Below are positions 33,729-54,959 of a stretch of 64,000 bases of DNA, piece after piece. Under the pieces are notes generated by a model. That model was not told the origin of the DNA. It did no database searches and saw nothing but the letters and a program-made list of their open reading frames with translations. The DNA is from an uncultured Bacteroidota bacterium (lineage in GTDB: Bacteria; Bacteroidota; Bacteroidia; Bacteroidales; P3), in NCBI GenBank assembly GCA_902791695.1, contig CADAWR010000007.1, forward strand, positions 110,371 to 174,370, written 5' to 3'. The position numbers and the translations under genes were made by a program. Position 1 is the first letter of the stretch, and every line of letters begins with the position of its first letter.

Positions 33729-35545
33729 TGGGCCATTTTCTGCCGATAACACTTGACGAGGTCAAACGCCTCGGTTGGGATATGGTCGATATAGTGCTCG
33801 TCACCGGCGACGCCTATATCGACCATCCTTCTTTCGGCACCGCCGTCATAGGGCGTACGCTGGAGGCGGCCGGCTACCGTGTGGCCATCATCCCGCAGCC
33901 TAATTGGCGCGACGACCTGCGCGATTTCCGCAAGTTCGGCCGTCCGAGACTCTTCTTCGGTGTCACCAGCGGGGCCATGGACTCCATGGTCAACCACTAC
34001 ACCGCCGCCCGCCGTCTGCGCCACGACGACGCCTATACCCCCGGCGGCCAGGCAGGCTTCCGCCCCGACCGCGCCACCTACGTCTATGCGCGCATCCTCA
34101 AGCAACTCTATCCCGACACACCGGTCATCATGGCTGGTATCGAGGCCAGTATGCGGCGCCTCGCTCACTACGACTACTGGGACGACCGCCTCTTCCCCTC
34201 CATCCTTGTCGACACTCCCGCCGACCTCCTCAACTACGGCATGGGGGAGAAGACCACCCTCAAGATAGCCCGCCTCCTCGCCGACGGCAAAGGCATCGAG
34301 GCCTGCTATAGCCTGCCGCAGGTGGCCTATGTAACCCGTACTGTAGAGCCGTTTCATGAAACGGCTCAACGCCTCCACTCCTTCGAGGAATGCCTCAAGA
34401 GCAAGCGCGCCGAAGCCGAGAACTACCATATCATCGACCTTGAGAGCAACAAGATAGAGGCCGCCACCCTCATCCAGCAGCATGGCGACCGCTATGTGGT
34501 CGTCAACCCGCCGGAACCCCCAATGGCTACCGACGAGATTGACGCCTCGTTCGACCTGCCGTACACACGCCTGCCGCATCCCAAGTACAAGAAGCGCGGC
34601 GCCATACCGGCCTTCGAGATGATACGCTGGAGCGTCAACACCCACCGTGGCTGCTTCGGCGGCTGCTCGTTCTGCACAATCAGCGCCCACCAAGGCAAGC
34701 AGATAGCCAGCCGCAGCGAGGCCTCCATCCTCCACGAGGTGGACGCCATCACCGCCGACCCCGATTTCCACGGTGTCCTCACCGACCTAGGCGGCCCTTC
34801 GGCCAACATGTGGCGCATGAAGGGCAGGAACCCCGAGCTCTGCCGCAAGTGCAGCCGCTACAGCTGCTCGATGCCAACGATGTGCAAGAACCTCGACAGC
34901 GACCACAAGCCGATGATGGAGCTCCTGCGCAAGGTTGCCTCACACCCCAAGGTGAAGCACCTATACGTCGGCAGCGGCATCCGTTGCGACCTCTTTACCG
35001 AGGACAACGGCGGCTGGCAATACTTCCGCCAGGTAGTAATCAACCATACCTCCGGCCGACTGAAGGTGGCACCGGAGCACACCTCCGACCACGTCCTCGC
35101 CCTCATGCGCAAGCCCTCTTTCGGCCTCTTCCGTGAGACCAAGCGCCGCTTCGACGAGATTTGCCGCCAGGCCGGCCTGCGCTATCAGCTCATCCCTTAT
35201 TTCATCAGCAGCCACCCCGGTTGCCGCCTCGAGGATATGGCCCAGCTGGCCCTCGACATGAAGCAGATGGGCTACCGGCTGGAGCAGATACAGGACTTCA
35301 CGCCCACGCCCATGACCATCGCCACGGAGATGTACTACACCGGCATCGACCCAACCACCCTCAAGCCCGTCTACGTGGCCACTACTCCCGCCGACAAAGC
35401 CGACCAGCGCCGTATGTTCTTCTTCTACAAGCCCGAACTGCGTGCCGACATAGCCGCCTCGCTCCGCCGCAACGGCCTCTCGGCTTATGCTACCAAACTC
35501 TTCGGCAACAATCAATTACAACAAAGGTCTTTCAGAAAGGGCTGA
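33728..35545 (+). CDS. ygiQ: YgiQ-family radical SAM protein
   Basis: 605 residues from the ATG at 33728 (TGATG overlap; an in-frame GTG at 33725 adds one residue). N-terminal YgiQ domain (MVDIVLVTGDAYIDHPSFG, FFGVTSGAMDSMVNHYT), the radical SAM cluster motif CFGGCSFC, GIRCDLF and TPTPMTIATEMYYTG. The reaction is unknown. A perfect palindrome sits in frame at 34346-34367 in a variable linker (THR-TVEPFHETAQ region). It closes the arcA-to-ygiQ chain. Confidence 0.92.
   Translation: MGHFLPITLDEVKRLGWDMVDIVLVTGDAYIDHPSFGTAVIGRTLEAAGYRVAIIPQPNWRDDLRDFRKFGRPRLFFGVTSGAMDSMVNHYTAARRLRHDDAYTPGGQAGFRPDRATYVYARILKQLYPDTPVIMAGIEASMRRLAHYDYWDDRLFPSILVDTPADLLNYGMGEKTTLKIARLLADGKGIEACYSLPQVAYVTRTVEPFHETAQRLHSFEECLKSKRAEAENYHIIDLESNKIEAATLIQQHGDRYVVVNPPEPPMATDEIDASFDLPYTRLPHPKYKKRGAIPAFEMIRWSVNTHRGCFGGCSFCTISAHQGKQIASRSEASILHEVDAITADPDFHGVLTDLGGPSANMWRMKGRNPELCRKCSRYSCSMPTMCKNLDSDHKPMMELLRKVASHPKVKHLYVGSGIRCDLFTEDNGGWQYFRQVVINHTSGRLKVAPEHTSDHVLALMRKPSFGLFRETKRRFDEICRQAGLRYQLIPYFISSHPGCRLEDMAQLALDMKQMGYRLEQIQDFTPTPMTIATEMYYTGIDPTTLKPVYVATTPADKADQRRMFFFYKPELRADIAASLRRNGLSAYATKLFGNNQLQQRSFRKG
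34346..34367. repeat. in-frame palindrome, copy A (in ygiQ)
   Basis: GAGCCGTTTCA followed by its complement TGAAACGGCTC: a perfect 22-bp palindrome preceded by GTA. It reads V-E-P-F-H-E-T-A in the gene's frame. The same design recurs at 43785 and 54492. Confidence 0.8.
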
Positions 35546-35560
35546 TTTCCAGCATCTCTT

Positions 35561-35669
35561 CGTACCCTCTCCGTACCCGCTCCGTACCCGCTCCGACTGT
35601 TCACCGGTTGTTTAACGGTTTTTAGTCGGAGGGGATACGGAGGGGAGTCGGAGAGGCTACGGAGAGGAA
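35561..35669. repeat. dispersed hairpin repeat, copy 2
   Basis: CGTACCCTCTCCGTACCCG-type units, CTCCGACTGTTCACCGGTTG, TTTAACGG and the complementary side (TAGTCGGAGGGGATACGGAG). It lies between ygiQ and the next rightward gene. Confidence 0.8.
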
Positions 35670-35705
35670 TTTGACAAAAAAATACCGGCATATTGTTTTT
35701 TTTCG

Positions 35706-35713
35706 TAATTTTG
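35706..35713 (+). promoter_or_regulatory. -7 element for the 35736 gene
   Basis: TAATTTTG only 22 bases before the ATG, so the leader would be about 15 bases. The hairpin repeat ends 36 bases upstream. Confidence 0.6.
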
Positions 35714-35735
35714 CACCGTTAAACACTATCCGGCG

Positions 35736-37064
35736 ATGCTGAAGAGATGCTCTATATTGAGGGCTGTGCTGACTGCAATGCTGATACTGTGCGGATTGCA
35801 GGTGTTCGGCCAGCAGGATGTCGCTGTGCTTCGTGGGCGCGTGACCTGCGGCGGCCGCGCTGTGCCTTACGCCACGCTGCAGTTGAAGGGCACCTCGGTC
35901 GGCGTAGCCTGCAACGACGATGGCGAGTACAGGCTGAAAGTGCCGGCAGGGCATGAGGAGGACACGGTGGTGGTGCGCTCGGTGGGCTATGTGGCAGTCA
36001 AGCTCACTGTGGCACAGCTCCTTGCCAAGGGCGATGTGAGGCTGCGGGAGCAGAGTGTGTCGCTGCGCGAGGTGAAGGTGGAGAGCTACCGCACGCCGCA
36101 GCACCTGCTGGAGGCTGCCAAGAAGCGATTTGCCGAGAACTACTGTCAGCAGACGGCTTGGAGCACATTCTTCTACCGCGACTGGCGCGCCGTGGACGGC
36201 GAGCTGTACCTCTTCGACGAGGCCGTGATGAGTGTGCGCCGCGCGGGCTACGGGAGCAATGCCAACAAGGAAGCCTACCGCTTCGACAGCGACCGGCGCG
36301 AGTTGAAGTCGAACTACAAGAGTGTGTTGCGCCATCGCATGGTGGTGCACGACCGCGTGCTGCTAGACGACAAGGTTGGCGACCCTCAGGGAGAGGACGA
36401 GCTGCTGCAGTATGCCGACAATGAGGAGTTCTACGACCCGGTAGCGACGCCGAGGGCCAGCTTTGCGCTGTCGCACAGTACCCTGGCGATGCACAAGTTC
36501 GAGCCCATACAGGAGTTTCTGGATGGCGACGACGTCTACTATCTGCTGCGCAGCGTTGGGCCTGGACGTATGGCCAAGATCAAGGTGCGCTACACCTACA
36601 CCGTGCGGAAGAGCGACCTGGCCATTGTGGCCATCACGGCTGCGGTGGACAGCGCCAACGTGGAGGCTGGCAGTGACTCGTGGATCAACATCAAGTACGA
36701 CCGCATGGCACTGACCACCGACAGCTCGTCGTGGCGCTACGATGTGCGCGACGGGCGCTATACGTTGACGCACTACTACAACGAGCGGCGCGTGGTGCTG
36801 GGCTACGGCGACCGGTTCCGCTTCAGCGGCGACCAGGAGTGGCGCCAGTGTGTGGACTGGACGCTGACTGACTTCACCACCACCGAGCCCATGGTGCATG
36901 GCGACACCATCTACGTGCGGCAGCAGACGCTGGCGGAGGCCTTCGGCGCGAGCGACTACGACGGCGACTACTGGGGACGCTACAACAGTGTGCCCGTGGA
37001 CATGCTGCCCCTGCGCATGCTGCGCGAGAAACTGATGAAAATCAAGAATAAAACAAAACAATAG
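35736..37064 (+). CDS. carboxypeptidase-regulatory-like domain protein
   Basis: 442 residues. A signal peptide ends near VFGQ. Residues about 28-110 form a CarboxypepD_reg-like beta-sandwich (VLRGRVTCGGRAVPYATLQLKG split over two strands, VGYVAVKL). The remaining 330 residues match no family I know; they contain many charged strands (FFYRDWRAVDGELYLFDEAV). Probably outer-membrane or periplasmic, like the many Bacteroidetes proteins with this N-terminal domain. The next gene begins 5 bases after the stop. Confidence 0.7.
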   Translation: MLKRCSILRAVLTAMLILCGLQVFGQQDVAVLRGRVTCGGRAVPYATLQLKGTSVGVACNDDGEYRLKVPAGHEEDTVVVRSVGYVAVKLTVAQLLAKGDVRLREQSVSLREVKVESYRTPQHLLEAAKKRFAENYCQQTAWSTFFYRDWRAVDGELYLFDEAVMSVRRAGYGSNANKEAYRFDSDRRELKSNYKSVLRHRMVVHDRVLLDDKVGDPQGEDELLQYADNEEFYDPVATPRASFALSHSTLAMHKFEPIQEFLDGDDVYYLLRSVGPGRMAKIKVRYTYTVRKSDLAIVAITAAVDSANVEAGSDSWINIKYDRMALTTDSSSWRYDVRDGRYTLTHYYNERRVVLGYGDRFRFSGDQEWRQCVDWTLTDFTTTEPMVHGDTIYVRQQTLAEAFGASDYDGDYWGRYNSVPVDMLPLRMLREKLMKIKNKTKQ

Positions 37065-37069
37065 CGGCT

Positions 37070-37771
37070 ATGAAAACGAAGATATTGCTTTTGGCGGCGG
37101 CCTTTCTGCTCGCGGTGCAGGGAGCCGGTGCCCAGCAGGTGGCGGCGGAGGTGGACAGCGTGATGCTGGCGGGCAAGGTGGTTAATCACCACAGCCACCG
37201 CATATACCGCAACTGCTACATGCGCTTTGTGCAGGAGGGGCGCACGGTGGCCGAGACCGTGACCGACACGGCAGGTGAGTTCATGGTGGCGGCGCTGCCC
37301 GTGGGCAGGGTGGAGCTGCATGTGAAGCTGAAGGGACTGCTGTTCCATCAGGCCGACCTCGACCTGCATGAGAACGCATACCTCACAGTGGCGGTGGATA
37401 CTATCAAGCTCATCACCCTGAAGGCGATCACGGTGGTGGCTACCAAGCACATGCTTGGCAGCATGCAGATTACGTCAATCCATGACCGGCGTCTGTGGGG
37501 CTTCAATGGCGGCTACCGCGACGCCAATGCCAGTGTGGCGCTGCCGCCCGACGCACATGGCAACTCGGATGCCGGTGAGGACGGTGGGGTTGGTGGCGAC
37601 GGACCCGTAGGCACGCCATTGTTCGACCCGGCGATGCCGTGGCAGATACGCCATGCACTGATGACAGGCAAACTCGGCACCCTGCTCATGACGCCGCCTA
37701 TATGGGAGGTGGTGCCCGACCGTGTCGTCAAGGCCGACAGTACAAAGGCCGACACTCCTGTGTCGGAATAA
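37070..37771 (+). CDS. exported protein with beta-sandwich regulatory-like domain
   Basis: 233 residues. A signal peptide ends near GAGAQ. A short CarboxypepD_reg/CnaB-like domain follows (VMLAGKVVNHHSHRIYRNCY, TDTAGEFMVAALPVGRVEL). The rest is Gly/Asp-rich with no known motif. It is encoded right after the related 442-residue protein and probably shares its location. The function is unknown. Confidence 0.6.
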   Translation: MKTKILLLAAAFLLAVQGAGAQQVAAEVDSVMLAGKVVNHHSHRIYRNCYMRFVQEGRTVAETVTDTAGEFMVAALPVGRVELHVKLKGLLFHQADLDLHENAYLTVAVDTIKLITLKAITVVATKHMLGSMQITSIHDRRLWGFNGGYRDANASVALPPDAHGNSDAGEDGGVGGDGPVGTPLFDPAMPWQIRHALMTGKLGTLLMTPPIWEVVPDRVVKADSTKADTPVSE

Positions 37772-37805
37772 TATTTGGGGCAGATATGTGCGAGAGGTGA
37801 GGCCC

Positions 37806-38516
37806 TCAGAAGGCGAGAGTAAGGCCTGCCGAAGCCGGGCCGACGTTGAGGCAGAGACTCCATTCGGGCTGCATGTCCCTATTGTCGGGCATTAGTTCGG
37901 CATGTCTGGGGTTGCTTCTGGCGGGGCCTTTGCGTTTGACGCGGTGTGGTTTGGAGCTCTTGCCGCGGGAGTAGCCACCGCCACTGCCACCGCCGTCGGT
38001 CACCAAGAGCACGATGCCGGTGCCAACCAGGACGGCGCCTGCCGCGGTGCCAATGATGCCGGCGGTCTTGATGCCTTTGCCTATATTATTTGCTTGTTTC
38101 AGAGTGGGGTCCTGCGAAGCATTGTCCATGCTGGCTGCCATGTCGGCTGCCGTGGAGGGATCCATGTTGGCTGCCATGTTAGCATCCATGGTGGCTGCCT
38201 GATTGGTGACATTGGTAAACAGGCCGCCCCATAGCCATAGGACAGCACCGCTCATCATGATGACGCCGCCGGAGATGACGCAGGCGATGCCCCAGCCCTT
38301 TTTCGATGCGTATTGCTGGGTGTTGAACTGATTGCCGGTGGCGAAATCGGTGGTGGGCAGGGGGAGCGAGTATATGCTGCTTGGGGTTGTCTGCGGTTGC
38401 TCGGAGAGGCTCAGTTGAAAGGAGTTGTCAGGTTTGAAGGCGCAGGCCAGGTCTTGGGCTTTCATTCCGGTGCAGAAAAGCATTGTAACTGCGATAAAGA
38501 AGAGTGTTTTTTTCAT
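37806..38516 (-). CDS. exported protein of unknown function with two hydrophobic segments
   Basis: 236 residues. A signal peptide ends near GMKAQ. There are two hydrophobic stretches (GIACVISGGVIMMSGAVLWLW and GIIGTAAGAVLVGTGIVLLV), each with glycine-rich spacing. Between them is a Met/Ala/Asp-rich segment with repeated AxMDxNMA-like units; a basic stretch (KPHRVKRKGPAR) follows the second. It stands alone with its own promoter. Confidence 0.6.
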   Translation of the reverse strand: MKKTLFFIAVTMLFCTGMKAQDLACAFKPDNSFQLSLSEQPQTTPSSIYSLPLPTTDFATGNQFNTQQYASKKGWGIACVISGGVIMMSGAVLWLWGGLFTNVTNQAATMDANMAANMDPSTAADMAASMDNASQDPTLKQANNIGKGIKTAGIIGTAAGAVLVGTGIVLLVTDGGGSGGGYSRGKSSKPHRVKRKGPARSNPRHAELMPDNRDMQPEWSLCLNVGPASAGLTLAF

Positions 38517-38551
38517 GTTTTATGTTTGTTTGCTGTGTTTCAAATTCGGTG

Positions 38552-38582
38552 CAAAATTACTTATTTTCCCCGAGGTGGCAAA
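38552..38582 (-). promoter_or_regulatory. promoter for the 38516 gene
   Basis: On the minus strand TTTG (38579-38582), a 19-base spacer and TAATTTTG (38552-38559), 35 bases before the ATG. A full Bacteroidetes match. Confidence 0.75.
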
Positions 38583-38594
38583 ATATTTTTGAAT

Positions 38595-40394
38595 TCAGTT
38601 GATAATCTCGTCGAGTTCCAGCCAGCGCAGCTCCTTCTCGTCGAGCAGGGCTATCACCTCGCCAATGCGTGTGGAGGCTTTTGTTATCTCAGCGGGGTCG
38701 GTGAGGGTGCCGCTGCTCAGCTGATGCTCCAGTGTGGCCTTTTCTGTGGTTAGTGCCTCTATCTCGGCGGTCAGTGCCTCGTACTCCTTCTGCTCCTTGT
38801 AGGTGGCCTTGCGCTTCTCGCTCTTGCTGCGCTCGTACTTGGGCTTCTCGGTGCGCTGTTGCAGGGTGCTCTCGCGCTGCTGGGCGGCCTTCTGCATGCG
38901 GTAGACGGTGTAGTTGCTGTGATAGTCGCGTATTTTGCCGCCCCCCTCGAATACCAACAGGTGGTCGACAATATGGTCCATGAAGGAGCGGTCGTGGCTG
39001 ACGATGATGAGGCAGCCCTTGTAGGTCTGGAGGAACTGTTCGAGTATCTGCAGGGTGTAGATGTCGAGGTCGTTGGTGGGTTCGTCGAGGATGAGAAAGT
39101 TGGGGTTGGCCATGAGCACCTGCAGTAGGTAGAGGCGGCGCTTCTCGCCGCCACTTAGGTTGCCGAAGTAGTTGTACTGCGTGGTGCCGTCGAAGCCGAA
39201 GTAGGTGAGGAACTGGTGAGCTGACATGCTCTTGCCGTTGTCGAGCTCTATCTCCTCGGCTATGTCCTTGACGAGGTCTATCACACGGCGGTCGGCGGGG
39301 GCGCTCATGCCCGCTTGGGTGTAGTAGCCGAACTGTATGGTCTGGCCCACGACGACGCGGCCGCTGGTAGGCTTCAGCCGCTCGGTTATGATGTTGAGGA
39401 ATGTGCTCTTGCCAACGCCGTTGGGGCCGACAATGCCTATCTTCTCGCCTTTCTTGAAGACGTAGGAGTAGTCGTCGATAAGGTCGCGGTAGCAGATGTT
39501 GTACAGCTCCAGTATCTTGCCGCCGATGCGTTCAGTCTTTACTGTCAGTTGCGGACGGCTGTCGTCGAAGCGCGTGTGTGCTTTTGCCTCAAGTTCATAG
39601 AAGGCGTCGATGCGAGCCTGTGCTTTGGTGCCGCGTGCTTGTGGCATACGGCGCATCCACTCGAGCTCGGTGCGGTAAAGGCTGCGGGCTTTCGCCACCT
39701 CGGCGCGCTCGTTGGCCTCGCGCTCGGCCTTCTTCTCCAGATAGTAGTCGTAGCGGCCTTTATAGTGATAGAGGCGCGAATTGTCGAGTTCGTAGATATT
39801 GTCGCAAACGTTGTCGAGGAAGTAGCGGTCGTGGGTCACCATGAGGATTGCCAGCCGCTGGCGCGATAAGAACTCCTCGAGCCACTCAATCATGTCTATG
39901 TCCAGGTGGTTGGTGGGCTCATCGAGGATGAGCAGGTTGCAGTCGTCCATTAGGAGGCGGCAGAGCGCCACCTTCTTCTGCTCGCCGCCACTGAGGGTGT
40001 CCATCTGGCGGTCAAGGAGAGTGTCGACACGCATGCGGCTGAGTATCTCCTCCATGCGTTGTTCGAAGGTCCAAGGGTCCTCGGTCTCGGGGCGTTGCAC
40101 ATTGTAGACGAAGTCGCGCACCTGTTGCTTGGGGTATGCTTCGGGGCTTTGCGGCAGATATGCCAGCTTGAGGTCGCCGCGGAAGGTTATCTTGCCTGCA
40201 TCCTGCAGGGTGTTATAGCCCTTTTGACCCGCAGCGGTCATTATTATGTTGAGCAGTGTCGACTTGCCGTAGCCGTTGCGGGCTATCAGCGCCGATTTCT
40301 GTCCGGCGTTGATGCCAAAGCTAATGTCTTCGAAGAGGAGCTTATCGCCGAAACTCTTGGTTAGTCCTTCGACTGTTAGCAGCGCGTCGGCCAT
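38595..40394 (-). CDS. ABC-F family ATPase (Uup-like)
   Basis: 599 residues from the ATG at 40394. Two ABC domains: Walker A ARNGYGKST and GPNGVGKST, signatures LSGGEQKKV and LSGGEKRRL, Walker B LLILDEPTNHLD and FLILDEPTNDLD. No membrane helices. A C-terminal coiled coil (about 520-600) resembles the Uup DNA/RNA-binding tail. ABC-F proteins act on the ribosome. It overlaps the stop of the phosphatase gene by 1 base and is the last gene of a six-gene leftward unit. Confidence 0.9.
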   Translation of the reverse strand: MADALLTVEGLTKSFGDKLLFEDISFGINAGQKSALIARNGYGKSTLLNIIMTAAGQKGYNTLQDAGKITFRGDLKLAYLPQSPEAYPKQQVRDFVYNVQRPETEDPWTFEQRMEEILSRMRVDTLLDRQMDTLSGGEQKKVALCRLLMDDCNLLILDEPTNHLDIDMIEWLEEFLSRQRLAILMVTHDRYFLDNVCDNIYELDNSRLYHYKGRYDYYLEKKAEREANERAEVAKARSLYRTELEWMRRMPQARGTKAQARIDAFYELEAKAHTRFDDSRPQLTVKTERIGGKILELYNICYRDLIDDYSYVFKKGEKIGIVGPNGVGKSTFLNIITERLKPTSGRVVVGQTIQFGYYTQAGMSAPADRRVIDLVKDIAEEIELDNGKSMSAHQFLTYFGFDGTTQYNYFGNLSGGEKRRLYLLQVLMANPNFLILDEPTNDLDIYTLQILEQFLQTYKGCLIIVSHDRSFMDHIVDHLLVFEGGGKIRDYHSNYTVYRMQKAAQQRESTLQQRTEKPKYERSKSEKRKATYKEQKEYEALTAEIEALTTEKATLEHQLSSGTLTDPAEITKASTRIGEVIALLDEKELRWLELDEIIN

Positions 40395-41461: not shown

Positions 41462-42421
41462 TCAGGTGAAATCTTCAAGTTTCTCAGGATTGTCGTTCAT
41501 GATATTGGGGCGCGGTTGATAGGCAAGGTGCAGCTTCGGATGGATGCGTAGGCGAAAGTCGCATTCGTCTTCATAGCAGCAACCATTGTCGGTCACCGCA
41601 TCGGTGGCGCCGCTATTGGCAACGGTCAGCATCGTCCAAACACCCTGAGTCTTCAATCTGTGCGACGGGAACCATCCTCGGGGCTGCAGCCCTTGACCGT
41701 CTAGTTCCCACATCAGCGATATCGGAGCTTCGGGCTGGTAGCCGAGAGGGAATGTGAGAGCATATTTGCATCGCTCCAACTGCCACAGTCGTATGGTGTT
41801 GCGTCCGTTCTTGCGCCCATGATATTCGTCGCCGAAGATTTCTATTGCATCTTCGATGGCGGTTACGCCGTCCACATTCTCGACGATTATCACGGCGCCG
41901 TCGTCTTTGGCGGTTTCCATCAGGTTTTCAACTTCCTGCCTGCGGGTGGCTTCTTCTCTTTTCTGCTTTATTATGTCGGGTTCGATGTTGCGGGCGGCTT
42001 TGTAGAACAGGTATACCGCCACGACGACCATCAGCCCTGACATAAGCCATTCATTTTTAGTCAGGAAATAGATGGCAGTTGCTATAGCTACGGCTCCCAG
42101 AATATAGTTGGTGTTCCGCTCCGCGCGTTGCTCTTTCCTGGCTTCGGCCAGTTTTTCCTTGGCTGGTTTGCGACGTTCTTTGCGTTCGGCATCCGCCTTG
42201 CGCTGCCGCTCACGGTTCTCCATACGGTCGTAAAAGAATGTCCATACAAGCAAATATATGGTTAAGGAAACAAAGATGCCCTCCACAATCACTAAAGCAA
42301 TGATTCTGGAGGTAGGGTCTTCCTCTGCCATTATATACTGGTAACTCCGTGCGGCAAACCAACCCGACCCCACGGCGATGGCCAGGCAGATCAGGCGGAG
42401 GAATATGTGGGAAATCTTCAT
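41462..42421 (-). CDS. four-helix membrane protein of unknown function
   Basis: 319 residues. Two hydrophobic helices at the start (ISHIFLRLICLAIAVGSGWF and IIALVIVEGIFVSLTIYLLV), a strongly basic coiled segment (residues about 70-105), two more helices (ILGAVAIATAIYFLT, SGLMVVVAVYLFY) and a soluble C-terminal domain of about 170 residues (ERCKYALTFPLGYQPEAPI, WELDGQGLQPRGWFPSH). No known domain recognised. It begins on the last base of the oxidoreductase fusion gene. Confidence 0.6.
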   Translation of the reverse strand: MKISHIFLRLICLAIAVGSGWFAARSYQYIMAEEDPTSRIIALVIVEGIFVSLTIYLLVWTFFYDRMENRERQRKADAERKERRKPAKEKLAEARKEQRAERNTNYILGAVAIATAIYFLTKNEWLMSGLMVVVAVYLFYKAARNIEPDIIKQKREEATRRQEVENLMETAKDDGAVIIVENVDGVTAIEDAIEIFGDEYHGRKNGRNTIRLWQLERCKYALTFPLGYQPEAPISLMWELDGQGLQPRGWFPSHRLKTQGVWTMLTVANSGATDAVTDNGCCYEDECDFRLRIHPKLHLAYQPRPNIMNDNPEKLEDFT

Positions 42422-44685
42422 TATCCCAGCACCTCCATGATGGCTTTGGCGGCTTTGCGTCCGGCGCCCATGGCAAGGATCACCGTGGCGGCACCGCTCA
42501 CGGCGTCGCCGCCGGCGAAGATATACTTACGGCTGGTTTGTCCGTTCTCGTCGGCCTTTATGCCGCCCCACACCTCGCAGTCCAAGCCCGGTGTGCTGGT
42601 GCGTATGAGTGGGTTGGGGCTGGTGCCGAGGGCGGCGACTATGGTGTCGGCCTCCACGTCGCACTCGCTGCCCTCAATGGGGCTGAATTTGCGGCGACCT
42701 TTCTCGTCGGGTTCGCCCATCTCCATCTTCACGCAGCGCAGGGCACGGACGTAGCCGTCATCGGTGCCGAGAATCTCGAGCGGGGCGGTCTGGAACATGA
42801 ACTGCACGCCCTCCTCCATGGCGTGGTGCACCTCCTCGCGGCGGGCGGGCATATCCATCTCGCCGCGGCGGTAGACTACCGTCACCTCGCTGCCCAGTCG
42901 CAACGCTGTGCGAGCGGCGTCCATGGCCACGTTGCCGCCACCCACCACTATCACCTTCTTGCCTAGATAAATGGGGGTGTCATACTGCTCGTCGTAGCCG
43001 TGCATAAGGTTGGTGCGCGTCAACAATTCGTTGGCACTTATGACGCCTATCTGCGTCTCGCCCGGTATGCCCATGAACTTGGGCAGGCCGGCGCCAGTGG
43101 CGATGTATACGGCGTCGTACTCCATGTCCTCAAAGAGTTGGTCTATCGTTATGCTCTTGCCGATGATGACGTTGGTGCGTATTTCAACGCCTAAGCGGCG
43201 CAGGTTCTCAATCTCCGGCTCCACCACACGCTGCTTGGGCAGGCGGAACTCCGGTATGCCGTAGACGAGCACGCCGCCGGCATGGTGCAGCGCCTCAAAG
43301 ACGGTAACCTGATAGCCGTGTTTGGCCAGGTCGCCTGCGCACGTCAGGCCGCTGGGGCCAGAACCGATGACAGCCACCTTGCGACCGGCAGGGTAGCAGG
43401 GACTCTGCGGCTTGGACTGCGCGCGGTGGTTGTCGGCCACGAAGCGCTCCAGCGCACCGATGGCTATAGGTTCGCCCTTCACGCCCATCACGCAGCTGCC
43501 CTCGCACTGCGTCTCCTGCGGGCAGACGCGGCCGCAGACCGCCGGCAGGGCCGAGTCGTGACTGATGGTGATATAGGCCTGGTTGAGGTTCTCCTCCTTG
43601 ATGTCCTGTATGAAACGCGGTATATTGATGCCCACAGGGCAGGCCTCGACGCAACGCGGCTTCTTGCACTGCAGGCAGCGGTTAGCCTCGATGAGGGCTT
43701 GGTGCTCGCTGAGTCCGAAACTGACCTCGTCGAAGTTCTTGGCGCGCACCTTGGGGTCTTGCTCGCGGGGTTTCTGTCTCTTTGGAGACGCATCATGGTG
43801 CGTCTCTACTGCCGCATCCACTGCATCCTTAAGGTTGCACTTGTGACCACTCTCGGCGGTGGCTATGCGGTAGCGCCGCGCATCCGGTGTCTTCAGCTTG
43901 CGGGCGGCTTCGTCGAAGTCCACCAGATGGCCGTCGAACTCGGGACCGTCCACGCAGCAGAACTTCACCTCGTCGCCAACCCTCACGCGGCAGGCGCCGC
44001 ACATGCCTGTGCCGTCCACCATCATGCAGTTGAGGCTCACTATGGTCGTCAGGTCGTACTTCTTGGTGGTGAGGCTTACGAACTTCATCATCGGCAGCGG
44101 GCCGATGGCCACACAGTGGCTATAGTCGGCACCACTCTGGCAGAGCTGGTCCACCTTGGCGGTCACCAAGCCCTGTTCGCCATAGCTGCCGTCGTCGGTC
44201 ATGATGTGCAGGTTCTGGCACACGGCGCGCAGTTCGTTCTCATAGAACAGCAGGTCTTTCGAGCGTGCGCCGATGATGACATCCGTCGGGATACCCTGGC
44301 GGAAGGCCCACTTCACCTGTGGGAACACCGGTGCTATGCCCACGCCGCCGGCCACGAAGAGCAGCCGCTTCAGCTCGCCCTTCTCGTGCTTCTCTATCAG
44401 CTCGCTTGGCCGCCCCAGCGGGCCCACGATGGTGTAGAGGTCGTCGCCCTCCTGCATCGCCGCCAGCTGGCGTGTGGTCTCGCCAACCACCTGAAACACT
44501 ATCACCACCGACTGGCGCTGGTAGACGATGTCGCTGATGGTGAGCGGTATGCGCTCGCCGTTCTCGTGGGGGATGACTATTACGAACTGGCCCGGCTTGC
44601 CGCTGAGCGATATCCACGGAGCGTGAATCTCCATCCGGTAAATCTCGTGGCTGTTGAGCAGCCTCTTGCTGATAATCTCGTACAT
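42421..44685 (-). CDS. fused DHODH-B-like FAD/NAD-binding subunit and NADPH-dependent glutamate synthase-like protein
   Basis: 754 residues. Residues 1-270: ferredoxin-reductase-like FAD/NAD domain and a 2Fe-2S cluster (CMMVDGTGMCGACRV, then FCCVDGPEFDG). A linker at about 290-320 carries a palindromic insertion. Residues 325-754: GltD-like part with cluster motifs CLQCKKPRCVEACPVGI and CGRVCPQETQC and two dinucleotide folds (VAVIGSGPSGLTCAGDL, VIVVGGGNVAMDAA). The layout corresponds to NfnA+NfnB (SudB+SudA) fused, a form known in Bacteroidetes. It may move electrons between NAD(P)H and ferredoxin; true glutamate synthesis is unlikely without the large subunit. Confidence 0.9.
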   Translation of the reverse strand: MYEIISKRLLNSHEIYRMEIHAPWISLSGKPGQFVIVIPHENGERIPLTISDIVYQRQSVVIVFQVVGETTRQLAAMQEGDDLYTIVGPLGRPSELIEKHEKGELKRLLFVAGGVGIAPVFPQVKWAFRQGIPTDVIIGARSKDLLFYENELRAVCQNLHIMTDDGSYGEQGLVTAKVDQLCQSGADYSHCVAIGPLPMMKFVSLTTKKYDLTTIVSLNCMMVDGTGMCGACRVRVGDEVKFCCVDGPEFDGHLVDFDEAARKLKTPDARRYRIATAESGHKCNLKDAVDAAVETHHDASPKRQKPREQDPKVRAKNFDEVSFGLSEHQALIEANRCLQCKKPRCVEACPVGINIPRFIQDIKEENLNQAYITISHDSALPAVCGRVCPQETQCEGSCVMGVKGEPIAIGALERFVADNHRAQSKPQSPCYPAGRKVAVIGSGPSGLTCAGDLAKHGYQVTVFEALHHAGGVLVYGIPEFRLPKQRVVEPEIENLRRLGVEIRTNVIIGKSITIDQLFEDMEYDAVYIATGAGLPKFMGIPGETQIGVISANELLTRTNLMHGYDEQYDTPIYLGKKVIVVGGGNVAMDAARTALRLGSEVTVVYRRGEMDMPARREEVHHAMEEGVQFMFQTAPLEILGTDDGYVRALRCVKMEMGEPDEKGRRKFSPIEGSECDVEADTIVAALGTSPNPLIRTSTPGLDCEVWGGIKADENGQTSRKYIFAGGDAVSGAATVILAMGAGRKAAKAIMEVLG
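43785..43806. repeat. in-frame palindrome, copy B (in the oxidoreductase fusion)
   Basis: Arms GAGACGCA and TGCGTCTC around TCATGG. On the coding (minus) strand it is preceded by GTA and reads V-E-T-H-H-D-A-S, in the linker between the two fused proteins. Confidence 0.8.
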
Positions 44686-47594: not shown

Positions 47595-47622
47595 GAGGGG
47601 TGCTTTATACAAAGCACCCCTC
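47595..47622 (+). terminator. kdd terminator
   Basis: A perfect 12-bp stem GAGGGGTGCTTT / AAAGCACCCCTC with an ATAC loop, then TCTGTTT. Confidence 0.8.
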
Positions 47623-47646
47623 TCTGTTTGGGAAGTGTCCAAAAGA

Positions 47647-47676
47647 AAAGCCCCTCGCTGTGTGACGAGGGGCTTT
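47647..47676. terminator. terminator between kdd and the exb operon
   Basis: AAAGCCCCTCG (47647-47657) pairs with CGAGGGGCTTT (47666-47676). T-rich sequence follows on both strands, so it can serve the leftward exbD gene and back up kdd. Confidence 0.8.
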
Positions 47677-47697
47677 CTTGTTTATCGGCTTGTACCC

Positions 47698-48743: not shown

Positions 48744-48749
48744 AGTGTG

Positions 48750-49220: not shown

Positions 49221-49278
49221 AATGGTTGTTCTTTTTTAGGTTTAGTACTATTTATTTACCTTCCAAAAGAGTGGACCA

Positions 49279-50112
49279 TTATTTGTGGTACTTCACGAGG
49301 ATATCCATGAAGCTGATGCTACCGTCTTCCATCTGGTCGACGAGGCTCTCGATTTTGGTGAGGATGTAGTTGTAGAATATCTGAAGGATGATAGCGGTGA
49401 TGAGACCGAAGATGGTCGTCAACAGAGCAACCTTCATACCGCCAGCCACAACGGTCGGGCTGATATCACCGGCAGTCTCGATGTCATCGAAGGCCTGGAC
49501 CATACCGACAACGGTGCCGAGGAATCCGAAGGAAGGAGCAAGGGCGATGAACAGACCAATCCAGGTCATGTTGTTTTCGAGGCGGGCCATCTGGACGCCA
49601 CCGTAGCTGGTGACAGCTTTCTCGACATTGTCGAGACCCTGGTCGATACGGTCAAGACCCTGAACGAAGATGCTGGCCACGGGGCCGCGGGTGTTGGCGC
49701 AGAGCTCACGGGCACCTTTCCAGTCACCCTTCTTGGCGTTCTCCTCAATGCCGTCGAGGAGCTTCTTCACGTTAGTGGTAGCCATGTTCAGGTAGAGGAT
49801 GCGCTCGATGATGAGAGCCATACCGAAGATAAGGCAGAGGAGCACGGGGGTCATCCAACCGGCACCACCCTGGATGTACTTCTCTTTCAGCATCTGGTGG
49901 AAAGACTTGGTGTCGTCATCAGAAGTGGCGGCAACGGTCTCTTCCACAGCGGCGGGTTCGGCCTCGACTGCTTCGGCTGCGGGAGCCTCGTCGGTGGCGG
50001 CTACTTGTTCTGTTGCTTCAGCGGCGGCGGCCTCGTCCTGGGCCATCACGTTGTTGAAGTTGGCAAATGTCAACAGTCCTACTATTGACATCAAGGCAAA
50101 TACTTTTTTCAT
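49279..50112 (-). CDS. exbB: MotA/TolQ/ExbB proton channel protein
   Basis: 277 residues. A signal-like N-terminus (to VMAQ) and an Ala/Glu/Val-rich stretch (25-65) come before the usual fold: helix GWMTPVLLCLIFGMALIIE, cytoplasmic domain, then WIGLFIALAPSFGFLGTVVG and VALLTTIFGLITAIILQIFY. It forms the channel with the ExbD proteins. First gene of the exbB, membrane protein, exbD, exbD unit. Confidence 0.93.
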   Translation of the reverse strand: MKKVFALMSIVGLLTFANFNNVMAQDEAAAAEATEQVAATDEAPAAEAVEAEPAAVEETVAATSDDDTKSFHQMLKEKYIQGGAGWMTPVLLCLIFGMALIIERILYLNMATTNVKKLLDGIEENAKKGDWKGARELCANTRGPVASIFVQGLDRIDQGLDNVEKAVTSYGGVQMARLENNMTWIGLFIALAPSFGFLGTVVGMVQAFDDIETAGDISPTVVAGGMKVALLTTIFGLITAIILQIFYNYILTKIESLVDQMEDGSISFMDILVKYHK

Positions 50113-50175
50113 GATGTTGTTAGTGTGTTGATTATTAAATTATTGTTTGTTATTCACTCTTGATGTTTCGTTTTG

Positions 50176-50207
50176 CAAATATACACTATTTTTTTAATAT
50201 AGCCAAA
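50176..50207 (-). promoter_or_regulatory. promoter for the exb operon
   Basis: On the minus strand TTTG (50204-50207), a 20-base spacer and TATATTTG (50176-50183), 63 bases before the exbB ATG. It overlaps the 3' edge of the upstream prenyl synthase region. Confidence 0.7.
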
Positions 50208-50212
50208 AAATG

Positions 50213-51187
50213 TCATTTTTTTCTTCCTTTTAACGTTTCCATGAGTTCTCGGAACGGTAGTTTCAGTGTTTCGTCGGTACGAATGCTGTTGAGGCATGTC
50301 ACTGCTTCGCCGAACTCTCTCTCAATGGCCTCCTCCACCTTTGGTCGGAGACCTACGGCATCATAGATGGCCATTACGCGGCGCACCTTCTCTTCCTCGT
50401 CGGTTTCGCTTCCGGAGAATAGTTTAAATAGTTCATCCCTCTGAGCATCATTGCATAGTGTTTCTGCTGTCAGCGGTAGGAATGTCTTCTTGTTGTCGCG
50501 TATGTCCTGGCCTGTCTTCTTGCCGAATACAGCGGTGTCGCCGTATCCGTCGAGCAGGTCGTCTTGCAGCTGGAACGCCAGTCCGAGGTGCAATCCGAAA
50601 TCATACAACTTGCGTACATCATCTTCCGGAGCACCGGCATATAGGGCTCCAATCTTCAGTGCACCAGCCAGCAACACTGCCGTCTTCTGGCGTATCATGT
50701 CCATGTATTCATCAATTGACACGTCTCCGCGGCGCTCAAAGTTCATGTCTTTCTGCTGCCCCTCGCATACCTCGATGGCGGTCTCGTTGAAGCACTGCAG
50801 AATCTCCTGCAGTCGTGGCGAAGGCTGTCTTAGGAAGTATCGCCACGCCAGCGCAAACATGGTGTCGCCGCTCAATATGGCCGTGTTGTCACCCCATTTT
50901 GTATAAACCGTCGGCTTTCCGCGGCGCAACGGCGAACGGTCCATCAGGTCGTCGTGCAGCAGCGTGAAGTTGTGGAATGTCTCTATGCCAAGTGCAGCAT
51001 CACGGGCAGCAGTGATCTTTCCGCCGAACATTGCATTTGCCGCCAGTAGCAGGGTAGGGCGTATGCGCTTTCCTCCGAGGCGTAACGTATAGTCTATGGG
51101 CTCATACAGCTCTCGCGGCTCTGCGATGAACTGTTCGTTTGAGAATATCTCCTCCACTTGCCCGAGGTAGTATTTCAAGTCTTTCAT
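50213..51187 (-). CDS. polyprenyl (trans-isoprenyl) diphosphate synthase
   Basis: 324 residues. First Asp-rich motif in LLHDDLMDRS, second in FQLQDDLLDGYGD; GGKRIRPTLL and the RRGKPT region bind substrate. It adds isoprenyl units to make farnesyl, geranylgeranyl or longer chains. The residue before the first motif (Phe-Thr-Leu-Leu-His) hints at short-chain control, but product length cannot be decided here. It follows the TPR gene by 17 bases. Confidence 0.92.
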   Translation of the reverse strand: MKDLKYYLGQVEEIFSNEQFIAEPRELYEPIDYTLRLGGKRIRPTLLLAANAMFGGKITAARDAALGIETFHNFTLLHDDLMDRSPLRRGKPTVYTKWGDNTAILSGDTMFALAWRYFLRQPSPRLQEILQCFNETAIEVCEGQQKDMNFERRGDVSIDEYMDMIRQKTAVLLAGALKIGALYAGAPEDDVRKLYDFGLHLGLAFQLQDDLLDGYGDTAVFGKKTGQDIRDNKKTFLPLTAETLCNDAQRDELFKLFSGSETDEEEKVRRVMAIYDAVGLRPKVEEAIEREFGEAVTCLNSIRTDETLKLPFRELMETLKGRKK

Positions 51188-51204
51188 GCCGCTATATTAT
51201 TATG

Positions 51205-52311
51205 TTAATAGGTTATTCCGTTCTTTGTGCACCATTCCTGCGCTTTCGCATTGCCCAGCTTGGCTGCCCTGCGATAGTTGTTGCGCTCCTTGGCCACATG
51301 TTTCTGCCGTCCATATAGCTCGGCGATGTTGCAATAGGTCTCCGAATCCTTGTTGTCAATCTCCACCGCTTTCTGATAGTTGCGTATTGCTTTCCCAAAG
51401 TCGCCCATTTCGGCATAGGTGCGCCCGAGCAGTCTGTATCCCTCGGTCATGCGCGGCGCAATGGCTATTGCTTTGCGGTACTGCTCTATGGCTTTGTTGA
51501 ATTCTCCGTTGCCGAAGTAAATGTCACCCAGGCGGTAGTATGCGTTCACATAGCCTGTGTCGAGTTCTATCACCGTCTGCAGGCATTCTATTGCTTTCGG
51601 CTTGTCGCCCTTGAGCATGAATGCCCACCCGAGACAGTAGTACAGTTTCACCGACTTCCGGTTCTCTTTCAGCCCTTTGCGCAGGGTGGTTATGGCGTTG
51701 TCGTGGTTGTTGTGGTAGCAGTATATGGTGCCTATGTTGAAGTGGGCGTCCACGTTGTTGGGGTCATGCTTCAGTGCTTCGCGAAAGGCTTTCAGCGCTT
51801 CAATGTCGTTGCCTTTGCGGAAGTATATTACGCCGGTGGCATTCTGAGCCCTTGCCGATGTGGGGTCTGCTTTTATGGCCTTGTGCGCCCAGTTCAGTGC
51901 GTTGGTGTAGTTCTCTTGGTTACAGTACACCAGCGCCAGCGTACTCATTGCCGATACCATTGTCTCCTTGTCATCTTTGTCGGCAGTCTCTATTGCTTTC
52001 TCTGCCGCCAGCTTTGCTGCCGCCCAGTCTTTTGTCTCTACATGGCATTCGGCAAGATGGGCCATCGCAACAGCACTGCTGTCGGCTTTAATCAGCCACT
52101 CCCGGGCATCGGCATAGTGTTCGCGTCGCTGCAGCAGCATCCCCAGCCGCAATCTGGCCGTGGCACTGGTGTCTGCCGCCTCGCGGTAGTAGCCTTCGGC
52201 CAGGTCGCCCAGTCCTTTGGCTTCTGCCGCAAGCCCTTTGTCGAGCATTCCCTGTCCGGCGGCGGCAACGGCGAGACCGAGCAGCATTGTCAGTATGGCG
52301 GTCTTTTTCAT
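51205..52311 (-). CDS. exported tetratricopeptide-repeat protein
   Basis: 368 residues from the ATG at 52311. A signal peptide ends near AAAGQ. At least eight TPR units follow (for example ALNWAHKAIKADPTSARAQN, ALKAFREALKHDPNNVDAHF, AIEQYRKAIAIAPRMTEGYR), closing with a Sel1-like AAKLGNAKAQEW. A periplasmic scaffold is likely. It is divergent from murL with a 75-base gap; I see no clear promoter for either gene in that gap. Confidence 0.85.
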   Translation of the reverse strand: MKKTAILTMLLGLAVAAAGQGMLDKGLAAEAKGLGDLAEGYYREAADTSATARLRLGMLLQRREHYADAREWLIKADSSAVAMAHLAECHVETKDWAAAKLAAEKAIETADKDDKETMVSAMSTLALVYCNQENYTNALNWAHKAIKADPTSARAQNATGVIYFRKGNDIEALKAFREALKHDPNNVDAHFNIGTIYCYHNNHDNAITTLRKGLKENRKSVKLYYCLGWAFMLKGDKPKAIECLQTVIELDTGYVNAYYRLGDIYFGNGEFNKAIEQYRKAIAIAPRMTEGYRLLGRTYAEMGDFGKAIRNYQKAVEIDNKDSETYCNIAELYGRQKHVAKERNNYRRAAKLGNAKAQEWCTKNGITY

Positions 52312-52386
52312 TGTTCCCTTTAACGCCGCCGCTCTTTTTTTATTGTGCCAATGTAATAATTCGATTTTTTTGTCGTTAAATATCAC

Positions 52387-53733
52387 ATGAACAACAACAA
52401 CGAGAAGTTTCAGTCGCTGCGGCGGCAATATCCCGTCTTCGAGTATGAGGCCTACCACTACCGTGAGGAAGCCGACGGTCTGCGCCTGTGGTTCGACTTC
52501 CGCATGGGCGACATAGAGTTCCACCCATCTGCCGTCATCGAGCGGCGTCCGTTCCTCGATTTCAGCAATAACATTGATGCCATAGTCTTCAATATCGGCA
52601 TGGTTGAGTTGGTGAGTTATTGGAAGTGCGCCTGTCCGCCAACGGTCAAGGTGCTCTGCGGCAGTCTCTCCGACACACAGGTGGCCTTCTGGCGCAAGCT
52701 CTACTGGCATGGCCTCGGTGAGTTTTTCTACACCAACGACATCGCTGCGACCTTTGACGATTATATGCAAGTTAACTGTCAGCATACATGCGGCAAACCC
52801 GACGCTTTCCATATTATTCAGAACACGGATAAATACCTTGTCCCAATCGGTGGCGGCAAGGACAGCGTCGTCACCCTCGAGCTCCTGCGCCGTGCCGGTC
52901 GCACTGTGCGTCCGCTCATCATGAATCCGCGCGGTGCCACGGTGGAGTGCGCCGCCAAGGCCGGCTTTCCCATCGGCGAGGTGCTCGTCATCCGTCGCAC
53001 CATAGACCCCACGCTCCTCGACCTCAACGCCAAAGGTTACCTCAACGGGCACACGCCCTTCAGCGCCATGTTGGCCTTCTACACGCATCTGGCTTCTGTC
53101 CTCAGCGGCATCCCCAATGTGGCCCTCAGCAACGAGAGTTCGGCCAACGAAAGCACCGTCCTCGGCACCTCGGTCAACCACCAGTACAGCAAAAGCCTCG
53201 AGTTCGAGGACGACTTCCGTGCCTACTGCCCCAGCTTCAACTATTTCTCTTTCTTGCGCCCCCTCACCGAGCTTCAGATAGCCATGCTCTTCAGCCGCTT
53301 CACGGCCTACCACGATGTGTTCCGTTCGTGCAACGTGGGCAGCAAGCAGGACATCTGGTGCGGCCACTGTGCCAAGTGCCTCTTCGCCTACATTATACTC
53401 TCGCCTTTCATTGAGCCGGCACGCCTCAATGCCATCTTCGGCAAGTCTATGCTCGACGACACTACGCTTGAGCACGAGTTCCTGCAGCTCACAGGCAAGG
53501 CTGAGACCAAGCCCTTCGAGTGCGTGGGCACCGTCAGCGAAGTGCGTCAGGCGCTGTCTATGACTGTCGACCGCTGGTACAGCACGGTTCGCAGACCCTC
53601 CCTCCTTAAAGACTTTAAAGACCTTAAGGATTCTAAAGACCTTAATAACCTTAAAGACCTCCTCCCCATGGGCAACCTCACCCCCGACGAACGCCAAATA
53701 CTGCAAGCAGCATGTACCGAGAAGACCAACTAA
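52387..53733 (+). CDS. murL: UDP-MurNAc-L-Ala-L-Glu epimerase, MurL-like
   Basis: 448 residues. An ATP-pyrophosphatase-like loop LVPIGGGKDSVVTLELL (GGGKDS at 155-160), ALSNESSANESTV, YSKSLEFE and a CxxCxxC-like WCGHCAKCLFAY. MurL, described in Xanthomonas, uses ATP to epimerise L-Glu to D-Glu on the UDP-MurNAc dipeptide and is encoded next to MurD2. Here a MurD-like ligase overlaps it by 22 bases, supporting the call. Six 9-base repeats (53605-53658) encode an LKD-type insertion at residues 407-424. The identification rests on motifs and context recalled from the family. Confidence 0.82.
   Translation: MNNNNEKFQSLRRQYPVFEYEAYHYREEADGLRLWFDFRMGDIEFHPSAVIERRPFLDFSNNIDAIVFNIGMVELVSYWKCACPPTVKVLCGSLSDTQVAFWRKLYWHGLGEFFYTNDIAATFDDYMQVNCQHTCGKPDAFHIIQNTDKYLVPIGGGKDSVVTLELLRRAGRTVRPLIMNPRGATVECAAKAGFPIGEVLVIRRTIDPTLLDLNAKGYLNGHTPFSAMLAFYTHLASVLSGIPNVALSNESSANESTVLGTSVNHQYSKSLEFEDDFRAYCPSFNYFSFLRPLTELQIAMLFSRFTAYHDVFRSCNVGSKQDIWCGHCAKCLFAYIILSPFIEPARLNAIFGKSMLDDTTLEHEFLQLTGKAETKPFECVGTVSEVRQALSMTVDRWYSTVRRPSLLKDFKDLKDSKDLNNLKDLLPMGNLTPDERQILQAACTEKTN
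53605..53658 (+). repeat. six in-frame 9-bp units in murL
   Basis: CTTAAAGAC, TTTAAAGAC, CTTAAGGAT, TCTAAAGAC, CTTAATAAC and CTTAAAGAC, exactly in codon register, giving LKD-FKD-LKD-SKD-LNN-LKD. Confidence 0.9.
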
Positions 53734-54959
53734 GAGCCCTGCTACAGGGTAAGAGCATTCTCATCGCCGGCTTCGGCCGCGAGGGTCGCAGCGCTGAGCG
53801 TCTCATCCAGCGCCTTGTGCCCGACGCACAGTACACCATAGCCGATGGCAACGAGCAGATTGCCGCCGAGGCCGCCAAGGGCTATGGTCTTATCATCAAG
53901 TCTCCGGGTGTTCCGATGCGTGTTATGGGGGGTGCCGAATGCTCCTCTTTGACCGACCTCTTCCTCCAGGTCTACGGCGACATGACTATCGGCGTCACCG
54001 GTACCAAGGGCAAGTCCACCACCGCAAGTCTCATCCACCACCTGCTGCCCGGCAGCATCCTCGCCGGCAATATCGGCATACCGTTGTTCGACATCCTCGA
54101 CGACCTGCGCGAGGACAGCATAGTCGTGGCCGAGCTCAGCTGCCACCAGCTCGAAAATATCCACCGTGGCCCGCATATCGCAGTGCTCCTTAACCTCTTC
54201 CAGGAGCACCTCGATCACTACGAGAATTATCTCGGCTACAAGATGGCCAAGCTCCAGATAGCCCTCCGCCAGCAGCCAGGCGACCATTTCTTCTATTGCA
54301 CCGACAATGCCGAGCTTGCCGACCTCGTCGCGCAGCACTCCGCAGCCATTGCCTCGGTCGTACACCCTTATTCCATCAATGATGTCTCCGTCGACGAGGA
54401 CACGCTCCTCGATGCTTGCCCACTCGATGGCGAGCATAACCGCAGCAATGCCCTTGTGGCCTGCCGTGTGGCACAACTATTGCGCCCCGTAGAGACGCTT
54501 CATGAAATGTCTCTGCGTTTGGCAACATTCCAAGGGTTAAGGCACCGCATGGAGAAGGTCGGAGTGTATAAAGGTATCACATGGTACGACGACAGCATCT
54601 CCACCATCCCCGCCGCCGCCATCGCCGCCGTACGAGCCCTCGGCCGTGTCGACACCCTCATCCTCGGCGGCTTCGACCGCGGCATCGACTACACACCCCT
54701 CGTCGACTTCCTGCAGCAGAACCCCATAAAGAACCTCGTCTTCGTCGGCGCTGCCGGAAGAAGAATTCATTCTCAATTCTCAATTCTCAATTCTCAATTC
54801 CTCATCGAGGACGACTACACCAAGATTGTCCCTTGGTGTGCCGCACACACGCCGCAGGGTGGGGTAGTGCTCCTCTCGCCTGCCGCCGCCAGCTACGACG
54901 CCTTCAAGAACTTCGAACATCGCGGCGACTTCTTCCGCGAACAGATAATGAAACTATGA
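53712..54959 (+). CDS. murD2: Mur ligase, MurD2-like (UDP-MurNAc-L-Ala:L-Glu ligase)
   Basis: 415 residues. N-terminal Rossmann-like domain (SILIAGFGREGRSAERLI), ATP loop GVTGTKGKSTTASL, ELSCHQLENI, FQEHLDHYENYLGYKMAKLQ, a DDSISTIPAA segment and LGGFDRGIDY. It differs from canonical MurD (NDSKATN) in the DDSISTxP motif, as I recall for MurD2. It should add L-Glu to UDP-MurNAc-L-Ala, leaving MurL to invert it. It carries a palindromic insertion (54492-54513) and a 7-base repeat insertion (54771-54798), both in frame. Confidence 0.82.
   Translation: MYREDQLRALLQGKSILIAGFGREGRSAERLIQRLVPDAQYTIADGNEQIAAEAAKGYGLIIKSPGVPMRVMGGAECSSLTDLFLQVYGDMTIGVTGTKGKSTTASLIHHLLPGSILAGNIGIPLFDILDDLREDSIVVAELSCHQLENIHRGPHIAVLLNLFQEHLDHYENYLGYKMAKLQIALRQQPGDHFFYCTDNAELADLVAQHSAAIASVVHPYSINDVSVDEDTLLDACPLDGEHNRSNALVACRVAQLLRPVETLHEMSLRLATFQGLRHRMEKVGVYKGITWYDDSISTIPAAAIAAVRALGRVDTLILGGFDRGIDYTPLVDFLQQNPIKNLVFVGAAGRRIHSQFSILNSQFLIEDDYTKIVPWCAAHTPQGGVVLLSPAAASYDAFKNFEHRGDFFREQIMKL
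54492..54513. repeat. in-frame palindrome, copy C (in murD2)
   Basis: GAGACGCTTCATGAA...TGTCTC, 22 bp, imperfect (two mismatched pairs), preceded by GTA. It reads V-E-T-L-H-E-M-S in frame. Confidence 0.75.
54771..54798 (+). repeat. 7-bp tandem repeat in murD2
   Basis: Four copies of TCTCAAT in a row, kept in frame because the flanks restore the register; encodes part of HSQFSILNSQFLI. Confidence 0.85.

Follow-up and report, generated by a model that had tools for sequence, protein, structure and literature searches.

The stretch of DNA analysed here (the window) comprises 64,000 nt of contig CADAWR010000007.1 (assembly GCA_902791695.1) from an uncultured Bacteroidota bacterium, whose genome is represented by 2.17 Mb in 37 contigs and is 95% complete. 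Three genes of the window each carry an in-frame copy of a short palindromic element with GTAG at its foot. In the gene of a YgiQ family radical SAM protein (33725..35545, plus strand; TIGR03904, 789.8 bits) the palindrome GAGCCGTTTCATGAAACGGCTC lies at 34346-34367 and, together with the GTA found directly before it on the coding strand, occupies positions 34343..34367 (plus strand) and is translated as V-E-P-F-H-E-T-A. The second palindrome, GAGACGCATCATGGTGCGTCTC at 43785-43806 (43785..43809 with its GTA, minus strand), is read as V-E-T-H-H-D-A-S. Its host is a fusion of a dihydroorotate dehydrogenase B-like NAD-binding part and NADPH-dependent glutamate synthase (FNR-GltA; 42421..44685, minus strand), for which the top profile NF009414 scored 1038.8 bits, under its cut-off of 1103, and TIGR01316 scored 566.3 bits, over its cut-off of 471.75. 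The third, GAGACGCTTCATGAAATGTCTC at 54492-54513 (54489..54513 with GTA, plus strand), gives V-E-T-L-H-E-M-S within a murD-like gene encoding UDP-N-acetylmuramoylalanine--D-glutamate ligase (MurD; 53712..54959, plus strand; TIGR01087, 248.6 bits). The palindromes in FNR-GltA and murD are imperfect, and each of the three copies retains the foot at one end only. Coordinates, translations and profile matches agree with an earlier, sequence-only reading of the window, which had reported three in-frame palindromes in real genes, and all three peptides fit the pattern V-E-[TP]-x-H-[ED]-x-[SA] that it proposed.

The same reading had placed every copy in a linker or variable region. This holds for GltA, where the copy follows the Fe-S domain, which ends at residue 255, and precedes Fer4_20, which begins at residue 314, and for MurD, where the middle domain (95-251) lies before it and the C domain (278-391, slightly below the Pfam cut-off) after it. 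The YgiQ copy lies within the Radical_SAM_N domain, yet at a site that is variable across the 29 other same-genus loci aligned. In a structure model of MurD the peptide (260-268) takes in a turn and the first part of helix 263-271; as modelled, it is thus part-helical and not simply unstructured. At two mismatches or fewer the window gave seven pattern matches, a number reached in 1 of 100 shuffles, vs. 1.39 expected; palindromes are scored once per strand, and six of the seven matches are the three sites.

Scanning of the whole genome at one mismatch or fewer with GTAGAG-N6-CATG-N6-CTC gave 15 + 16 matches by strand (nine exact) vs. 4 + 3 for the reversed control, and the narrower pattern GTAGAGACG-N4..20-CGTCTC gave 4 + 2 vs. 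0 + 0. A separate one-mismatch scan returned 18 matches per strand vs. 2 in the control, and 40 vs. 2 for G089, the nearest relative identified through YgiQ (G, L and C mark our genomes, loci and contigs). The most frequent exact form in the window's genome was GTAGAGACGTTTCATGAAACGTCTC, with the fourth base of the stem varying between A and C. Besides YgiQ, the FNR-GltA fusion and MurD, the coding hosts in this genome were PriA, CoaBC, a RapZ-C/APH fusion, a GNAT acetyltransferase, a short-chain fatty acid transporter, a polyprenyl synthetase and a 177-AA protein with no Pfam match. One element dispersed over unrelated genes, as the sequence-only reading supposed, was thus found as a genome-wide family above control.

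The tally of locations rests on 13 loci judged true. It placed 11 of 14 copies examined inside open reading frames (ORFs) of 160 AA or more, all 11 in frame 0 (that of the V-E peptides); these include both units of a pair in the RapZ fusion, the second of which is degenerate. The other three copies (L004, L011, L029), at ORF ends or within a short ORF, are probably intergenic. Location and frame tallies throughout are based on ORF length and not on gene prediction, and may include spurious ORFs. Of the 14 copies, 13 deviate from the pattern at no more than one position, and five of the 18 matches are outside the tally (about two expected by control). Dropped as doubtful or at chance level were L013, L017, L019, L020, L027, L028, L031 and the last match of the genome pattern scan, and as duplicates L001, L012, L014, L015, L016, L018, L022, L023, L024, L025 and L030.

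In structure the element corresponds to the GTAG-tagged superfamily of repetitive extragenic palindromes (REPs) (PMC3733652): a dispersed, multi-copy palindrome of 20-40 nt with a GTAG foot, occurring singly or as inverted dimers and linked to REP-associated tyrosine transposases (RAYTs). The foot, single in the window, is often double elsewhere, and GTAG...CTAC was present in copies of relatives and of other phyla. T precedes GTAG in 134 of 215, 26 of 35, 30 of 45 and 6 of 8 feet (four sets; 62-75%). Two inverted REPs flanking a short loop, the form known as REPIN, were 45 nt apart in most pairs. Among 14 pairs less than 100 nt apart in the window's genome and G089, not each one a proven REPIN, this spacing was seen nine times (eight in G089, one in the window's genome), and 42, 57, 78, 87 and 90 nt once each. 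All 14 spacings are multiples of three, which is partly forced because these pairs are in ORFs; outside ORFs, one pair in a cross-phylum sample was spaced by 41 nt and one in G021 by 69 nt, a multiple of three. If the foot is counted with its T...A, the unit may measure 30 nt and the usual REPIN 75 nt, so that each would hold a whole number of codons. In G087, a variant family had CCTG/CAGG (GCGGCCTGCCGC, GCAGCCTGCTGC) in place of the CATG centre, 15 of 22 matches, with close pairs 45, 54 and 60 nt apart.

G089 harbours about 40 copies, and 36 of the 39 examined were inside ORFs of 160 AA or more, 35 of them in frame 0. In this tally L420:2237, the second REP of a GNAT REPIN, was nevertheless scored as outside, which is cancelled by L425, scored as inside (frame 2) on a probably spurious 161-AA ORF; L428 was scored as inside with no Pfam match. 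REPINs were in frame within the FeoB, MltG, GNAT, RsmE, MetK, ABC ATPase, GH2 and GH20 genes, and further hosts were PriA, TilS and ABC proteins; what we take to be TilS and RsmE are so labelled from Pfam domains and recall. Four scans of host ORFs, from G089 and the window's genome, found a Pfam family for 3 of 3, 4 of 4, 9 of 10 and 7 of 10. The REPINs recurrently encode V-E-P-F-H-E-T-A-H-D-D-G-A-I-Y-K-E-P-F-H-E-T-A-L or a near variant, and VEPFHETAHDDGAIYK is an example of the insert peptide predicted in G089-type proteins. RNA hairpin z-scores were -7.7 for the MetK REPIN and -4.6 to -5.1 for the three window copies. Copies common to the window's genome and G089 were found in an AtoE-like transporter (L009/L245), the RapZ fusion (L002/L242), PriA (L003/L243) and GNAT (L005/L420); for GNAT, G089 has a complete REPIN, of which a shortened remnant is present in the window's genome. 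The strict element was present in 18 of 149 genomes of the family. The share of copies in ORFs was 6/7 in G028, 4/9 in G029, 2/4 in G086, 2/4 in G038, 1/3 in G005 and G017 together, 2/9 in G007 and 0/3 in G021.

On the GTAG strand, reading at +1 gives TAG, and reading at +2 gives TGA when the core is TCATGA. Copies with that core can be translated on this strand only in frame 0, because the stops close the other two frames; on the opposite strand of a one-foot copy a second frame is open (RRFMKRLY). We used as a control copies whose core leaves frame 1 open, drawn from 199 distinct copies, 67 of which were well within ORFs of 200 AA or more. When frames 0 and 1 were both open (35 copies), 28 copies were in frame 0, six in frame 1 and one in frame 2 (binomial p 0.0002 for 28 vs. 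6, with copies non-independent, REPIN partners least of all). With only frames 0 and 2 open, all 10 copies were in frame 0; 20 copies had frame 0 alone open, and two had frame 0 closed and were both in frame 1. Stop codons account for much of the frame bias but not all of it, because frame 0 leads even where frame 1 is open. The preferred frame claimed by the sequence-only reading was present among the copies examined, although part of it is imposed by the palindrome itself.

This excess could be taken to mean that the peptide V-E-T-F-H-E-T-S itself is selected as a functional motif, the DNA palindrome being a by-product. One copy common to three species in one gene (L034 and L040, degenerate in L422) would agree with it. 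We consider this improbable, as the middle residues vary with the DNA core between genomes (ETWHAAS, ETVHAPS, ETLHATS), the host genes are unrelated, and the six frame-1 copies have their like in RAYT-like genes of G007, G017 and L100, where REPs are also read in frame 1. A conserved protein motif was rejected, since same-genus orthologues are without the residues: they were absent from the YgiQ and MurD sites in the other same-genus loci aligned (0 of 29 each), a result that does not refute the insertion in a preferred frame proposed by the sequence-only reading, which is largely right.

RAYT-like genes accompany the element in relatives. In G089 such a gene adjoins MetK and contains three in-frame REPs; it scored 54.8 bits with NF047646 (cut-off 80) and 23.1 bits with PF01797 (cut-off 23). 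A scan with PF01797 detected Y1 transposases in 62 of the 149 family genomes. As a marker of the cognate transposase this profile was abandoned, having missed the REP-carrying gene on contig C11 of G089, and the G089 protein was used instead. With this query (E <= 0.001) a RAYT match was found in 13 of the 18 element-bearing genomes vs. 26 of the 131 others (Fisher p 1.5e-5; the 149 genomes are taken as the same set in both scans, include the query source G089 and are uncorrected for relatedness). Of 24 distinct RAYT-like loci, some of them picked because they carry the element, eight had a REP inside the RAYT ORF (G089, G038, G007, G017, L099, L100, L141 and L089). The RAYT-like gene of G086 (L316, contig C13) consists of two open pieces around a REP and looks broken.

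From the repeat family, the absence of the peptide in orthologues, the frame, the REPIN form, and the association with RAYT genes and location inside them in relatives, we conclude with good confidence that the palindromes are copies of a non-autonomous, probably mobile hairpin, the GTAG REP (T)GTAGAG[A/C]CG-N3-CATG-N3-CG[T/G]CTC(TACA), which also occurs as a REPIN, is most likely moved by a RAYT and survives in genes. A RAYT/TnpA-REP transposase (HUH, Y1) would most likely copy or move the element as single-stranded DNA. Insertions into genes would persist when they alter the net length by a multiple of three, frame 0 is read and the protein is tolerant, that is, under selection on length and peptide; persisting copies would then be inherited vertically and decay. 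That the palindromes might instead be protein-bound operators or regulatory sites, present in genes by chance, would fit the dyad symmetry and the CATG centre. It is hardly credible given the paired REPIN structure, the variable cores, the gene-internal location and the RAYT association.

Comparison of orthologous sites in same-genus loci, aligned at the DNA level, showed that the element comes with added length in three of five genes compared (MetK in G089, CoaBC and GltA), the peptide being absent from the orthologues. The CoaBC site measures 81 nt in the window's genome vs. 60 or 63 nt in 29 relatives, a difference of 18-21 nt. The MetK site is 51 nt long in the window's genome and 117 nt (+66 nt) in G089, where it holds the REPIN VEPFHETAPRRQKVSKETFHETSL; in G086 it is 69 nt and holds a single REP with a different core, and elsewhere it ranges from 48 to 108 nt, the longest sites holding other repeats. 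For GltA the difference relative to G089 is +12 nt. The MurD site is 72 nt in the window's genome; in 29 orthologues it spans 60 to 75 nt (three of 60, two of 63, 23 of 69 and one of 75 nt). Seven of these look repeat-free (L208, L211 and L212 with 60 nt; L214 and L234 with 63; L231 and L233 with 69), and most others hold another repeat. All net differences are multiples of three, from zero to 66 nt.

Several results weigh against a mobile REP inserted into these genes. The window's own genome, 95% complete, yielded no RAYT by PF01797 or by the G089 protein query; because no transposase was found there, the copies may be relics acquired by inheritance; alternatively, the RAYT gene may lie in the missing 5%. 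Only 4 of the 115 cross-phylum loci covered had a RAYT-like match in the DNA around the element, and in three of these four the strict element lies between two pieces of the match. No movement of the element was observed. The MurD site exceeds its repeat-free-looking relatives by only 3 to 12 nt, and among 30 YgiQ loci there was no empty site, 19 of them (including that of the window) measuring 57-63 nt regardless of content. As the gain in MurD and GltA is smaller than the element (25-30 nt), host sequence must have been lost or overwritten. It is conceivable, though unlikely, that native codons were generally overwritten and not split, the element replacing a similar length of host DNA, for example by annealing of single-stranded REP DNA at microhomology. 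The small gains in MurD and GltA and the occupation of the same sites by other repeats speak for such replacement, as does YgiQ, where the site is 60 nt with the element and also 60 nt in G089 (protein 96% identical), which has AAAATTGAAAATTC-type repeats there. The extra length in MetK of G089 and in CoaBC is mostly addition and argues for the mobile REP as an insert.

The element was also detected in named genomes of Bacteroidota, Cyanobacteria, Chloroflexi, Acidobacteria, Fibrobacteres, Ignavibacteria and Desulfuromonas, in at least 115 stretches of named contigs (80 of them listed). REPs are named for their extragenic position. In the window's genome and G089, 47 of 53 examined copies were in ORFs vs. 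24 of 123 in the cross-phylum sample (Fisher p 2e-18, uncorrected for relatedness, REPIN partners counted separately, and with mismatch limits of 2, 1 and 0 for the window's genome, G089 and the sample). The GTAG REPs of PMC3733652 are mostly intergenic, and our two close genomes differ from them in this respect; extragenic position is the usual location of GTAG REPs and not their defining structure. The REPINs of PMC3116915, two inverted REPs around a loop forming one unit, likewise consist of REP 16-mers that are mainly extragenic, unlike the mostly translated copies seen here.

In the passages covered, PMC3733652 reports GTAG repeats, with dimers, RAYT association and intragenic copies in several species, from Proteobacteria, Cyanobacteria, Chloroflexi and Planctomycetes-Verrucomicrobia-Chlamydiae (PVC), and has Bacteroidetes under CGTC repeats only. 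In PMC6006769, REPs of TnpA-REP subclass 2.4 have a double foot, are abundant in Bacteroidetes and Cyanobacteria and lie inside the transposase gene, between the HuH and Y motifs, with the frame intact. Our element shares with these subclass 2.4 REPtrons the GTAG...CTAC double foot and the in-frame REPs in a transposase gene, both as seen in relatives and other genomes; it works like, and very likely is, a subclass 2.4 REP, an assignment made by description. It differs from them in occurring also in some twenty ordinary genes within a single genome, and in that the window's genome has no detectable transposase. The sequence-only reading knew of no such description for this group, which does not hold at the phylum level given the subclass 2.4 REPs of Bacteroidetes (PMC6006769) and the intragenic REPs of PMC3733652. 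It had also likened the palindromes to Rickettsia palindromic elements (RPEs); both are in-frame palindromic inserts in unrelated genes (as described in PMC3733652) and work similarly, but ours belongs with the RAYT-type GTAG REPs/REPINs and is not an RPE. PMC3733652 classes RPE-4 and RPE-6 as CGTC repeats, a class with no associated transposase, whereas the element here, compared by description, is GTAG-footed and goes with RAYT, its CGTC, where present, being in the paired stem. No gene-confined REPs beyond those of PMC3733652 and PMC6006769 were found in print by a search that mostly left out subscription journals.

What looks new here is the scale of the gene location, the class itself being already described; it is unusual for copies to be so largely within genes and to share a single reading frame. 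A literature text search for the letters of the element matched 426 papers, and among the 40 matches listed the titles look unrelated. Small dispersed mobile repeats of Cyanobacteria, reportedly described by Elhai in 2008, are likely the same or a close family. It is possible, though rather unlikely, that the REP/REPIN has become gene-adapted in this lineage; it would then act as a protein-linker module, mobile and self-propagating, with a preference for genes over intergenic DNA. TCATGA and GTAG close the other sense frames, the units would be 30 and 75 nt, and the spacings of close pairs are all divisible by three. Translation extends to almost every copy examined, those inside the G089 transposase among them. 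The location may come from gene targeting, from loss of intergenic copies or from design by selection. A REP population almost wholly in genes, beside genomes of the same genus that gave no match to the strict element, offers ready tests of whether RAYT systems target genes, of the tolerance of genes to mobile inserts, and of the origin and turnover of linkers.

A second kind of repeat, arrays of units of about 7 bases (AATTCTC, TTTCAAC, AAAATTC, AGTGGAA, CATCATT), was seen in frame in MurD, YgiQ and MetK of many same-genus species, e.g., HSQFSILNSQFLI and KIENSKLKIENS, including window positions 54768-54806 (MurD residues 353-365), L175-L234 and L373-L378. The same permissive MurD, YgiQ and MetK sites are occupied by different repeat families in different species, which suggests that proteins of this group regularly gain linkers from short mobile or tandem DNA. 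A glutamine-codon-rich stretch (CAACAG/CAGCAA) at window positions 20816-20981 is absent from G089 at the syntenic place. The same REP was also found near the C-terminus, in a hairpin loop, in L048, L329, L315, L098 and L104, within a domain that we presume to resemble the type 9 secretion sorting domain.

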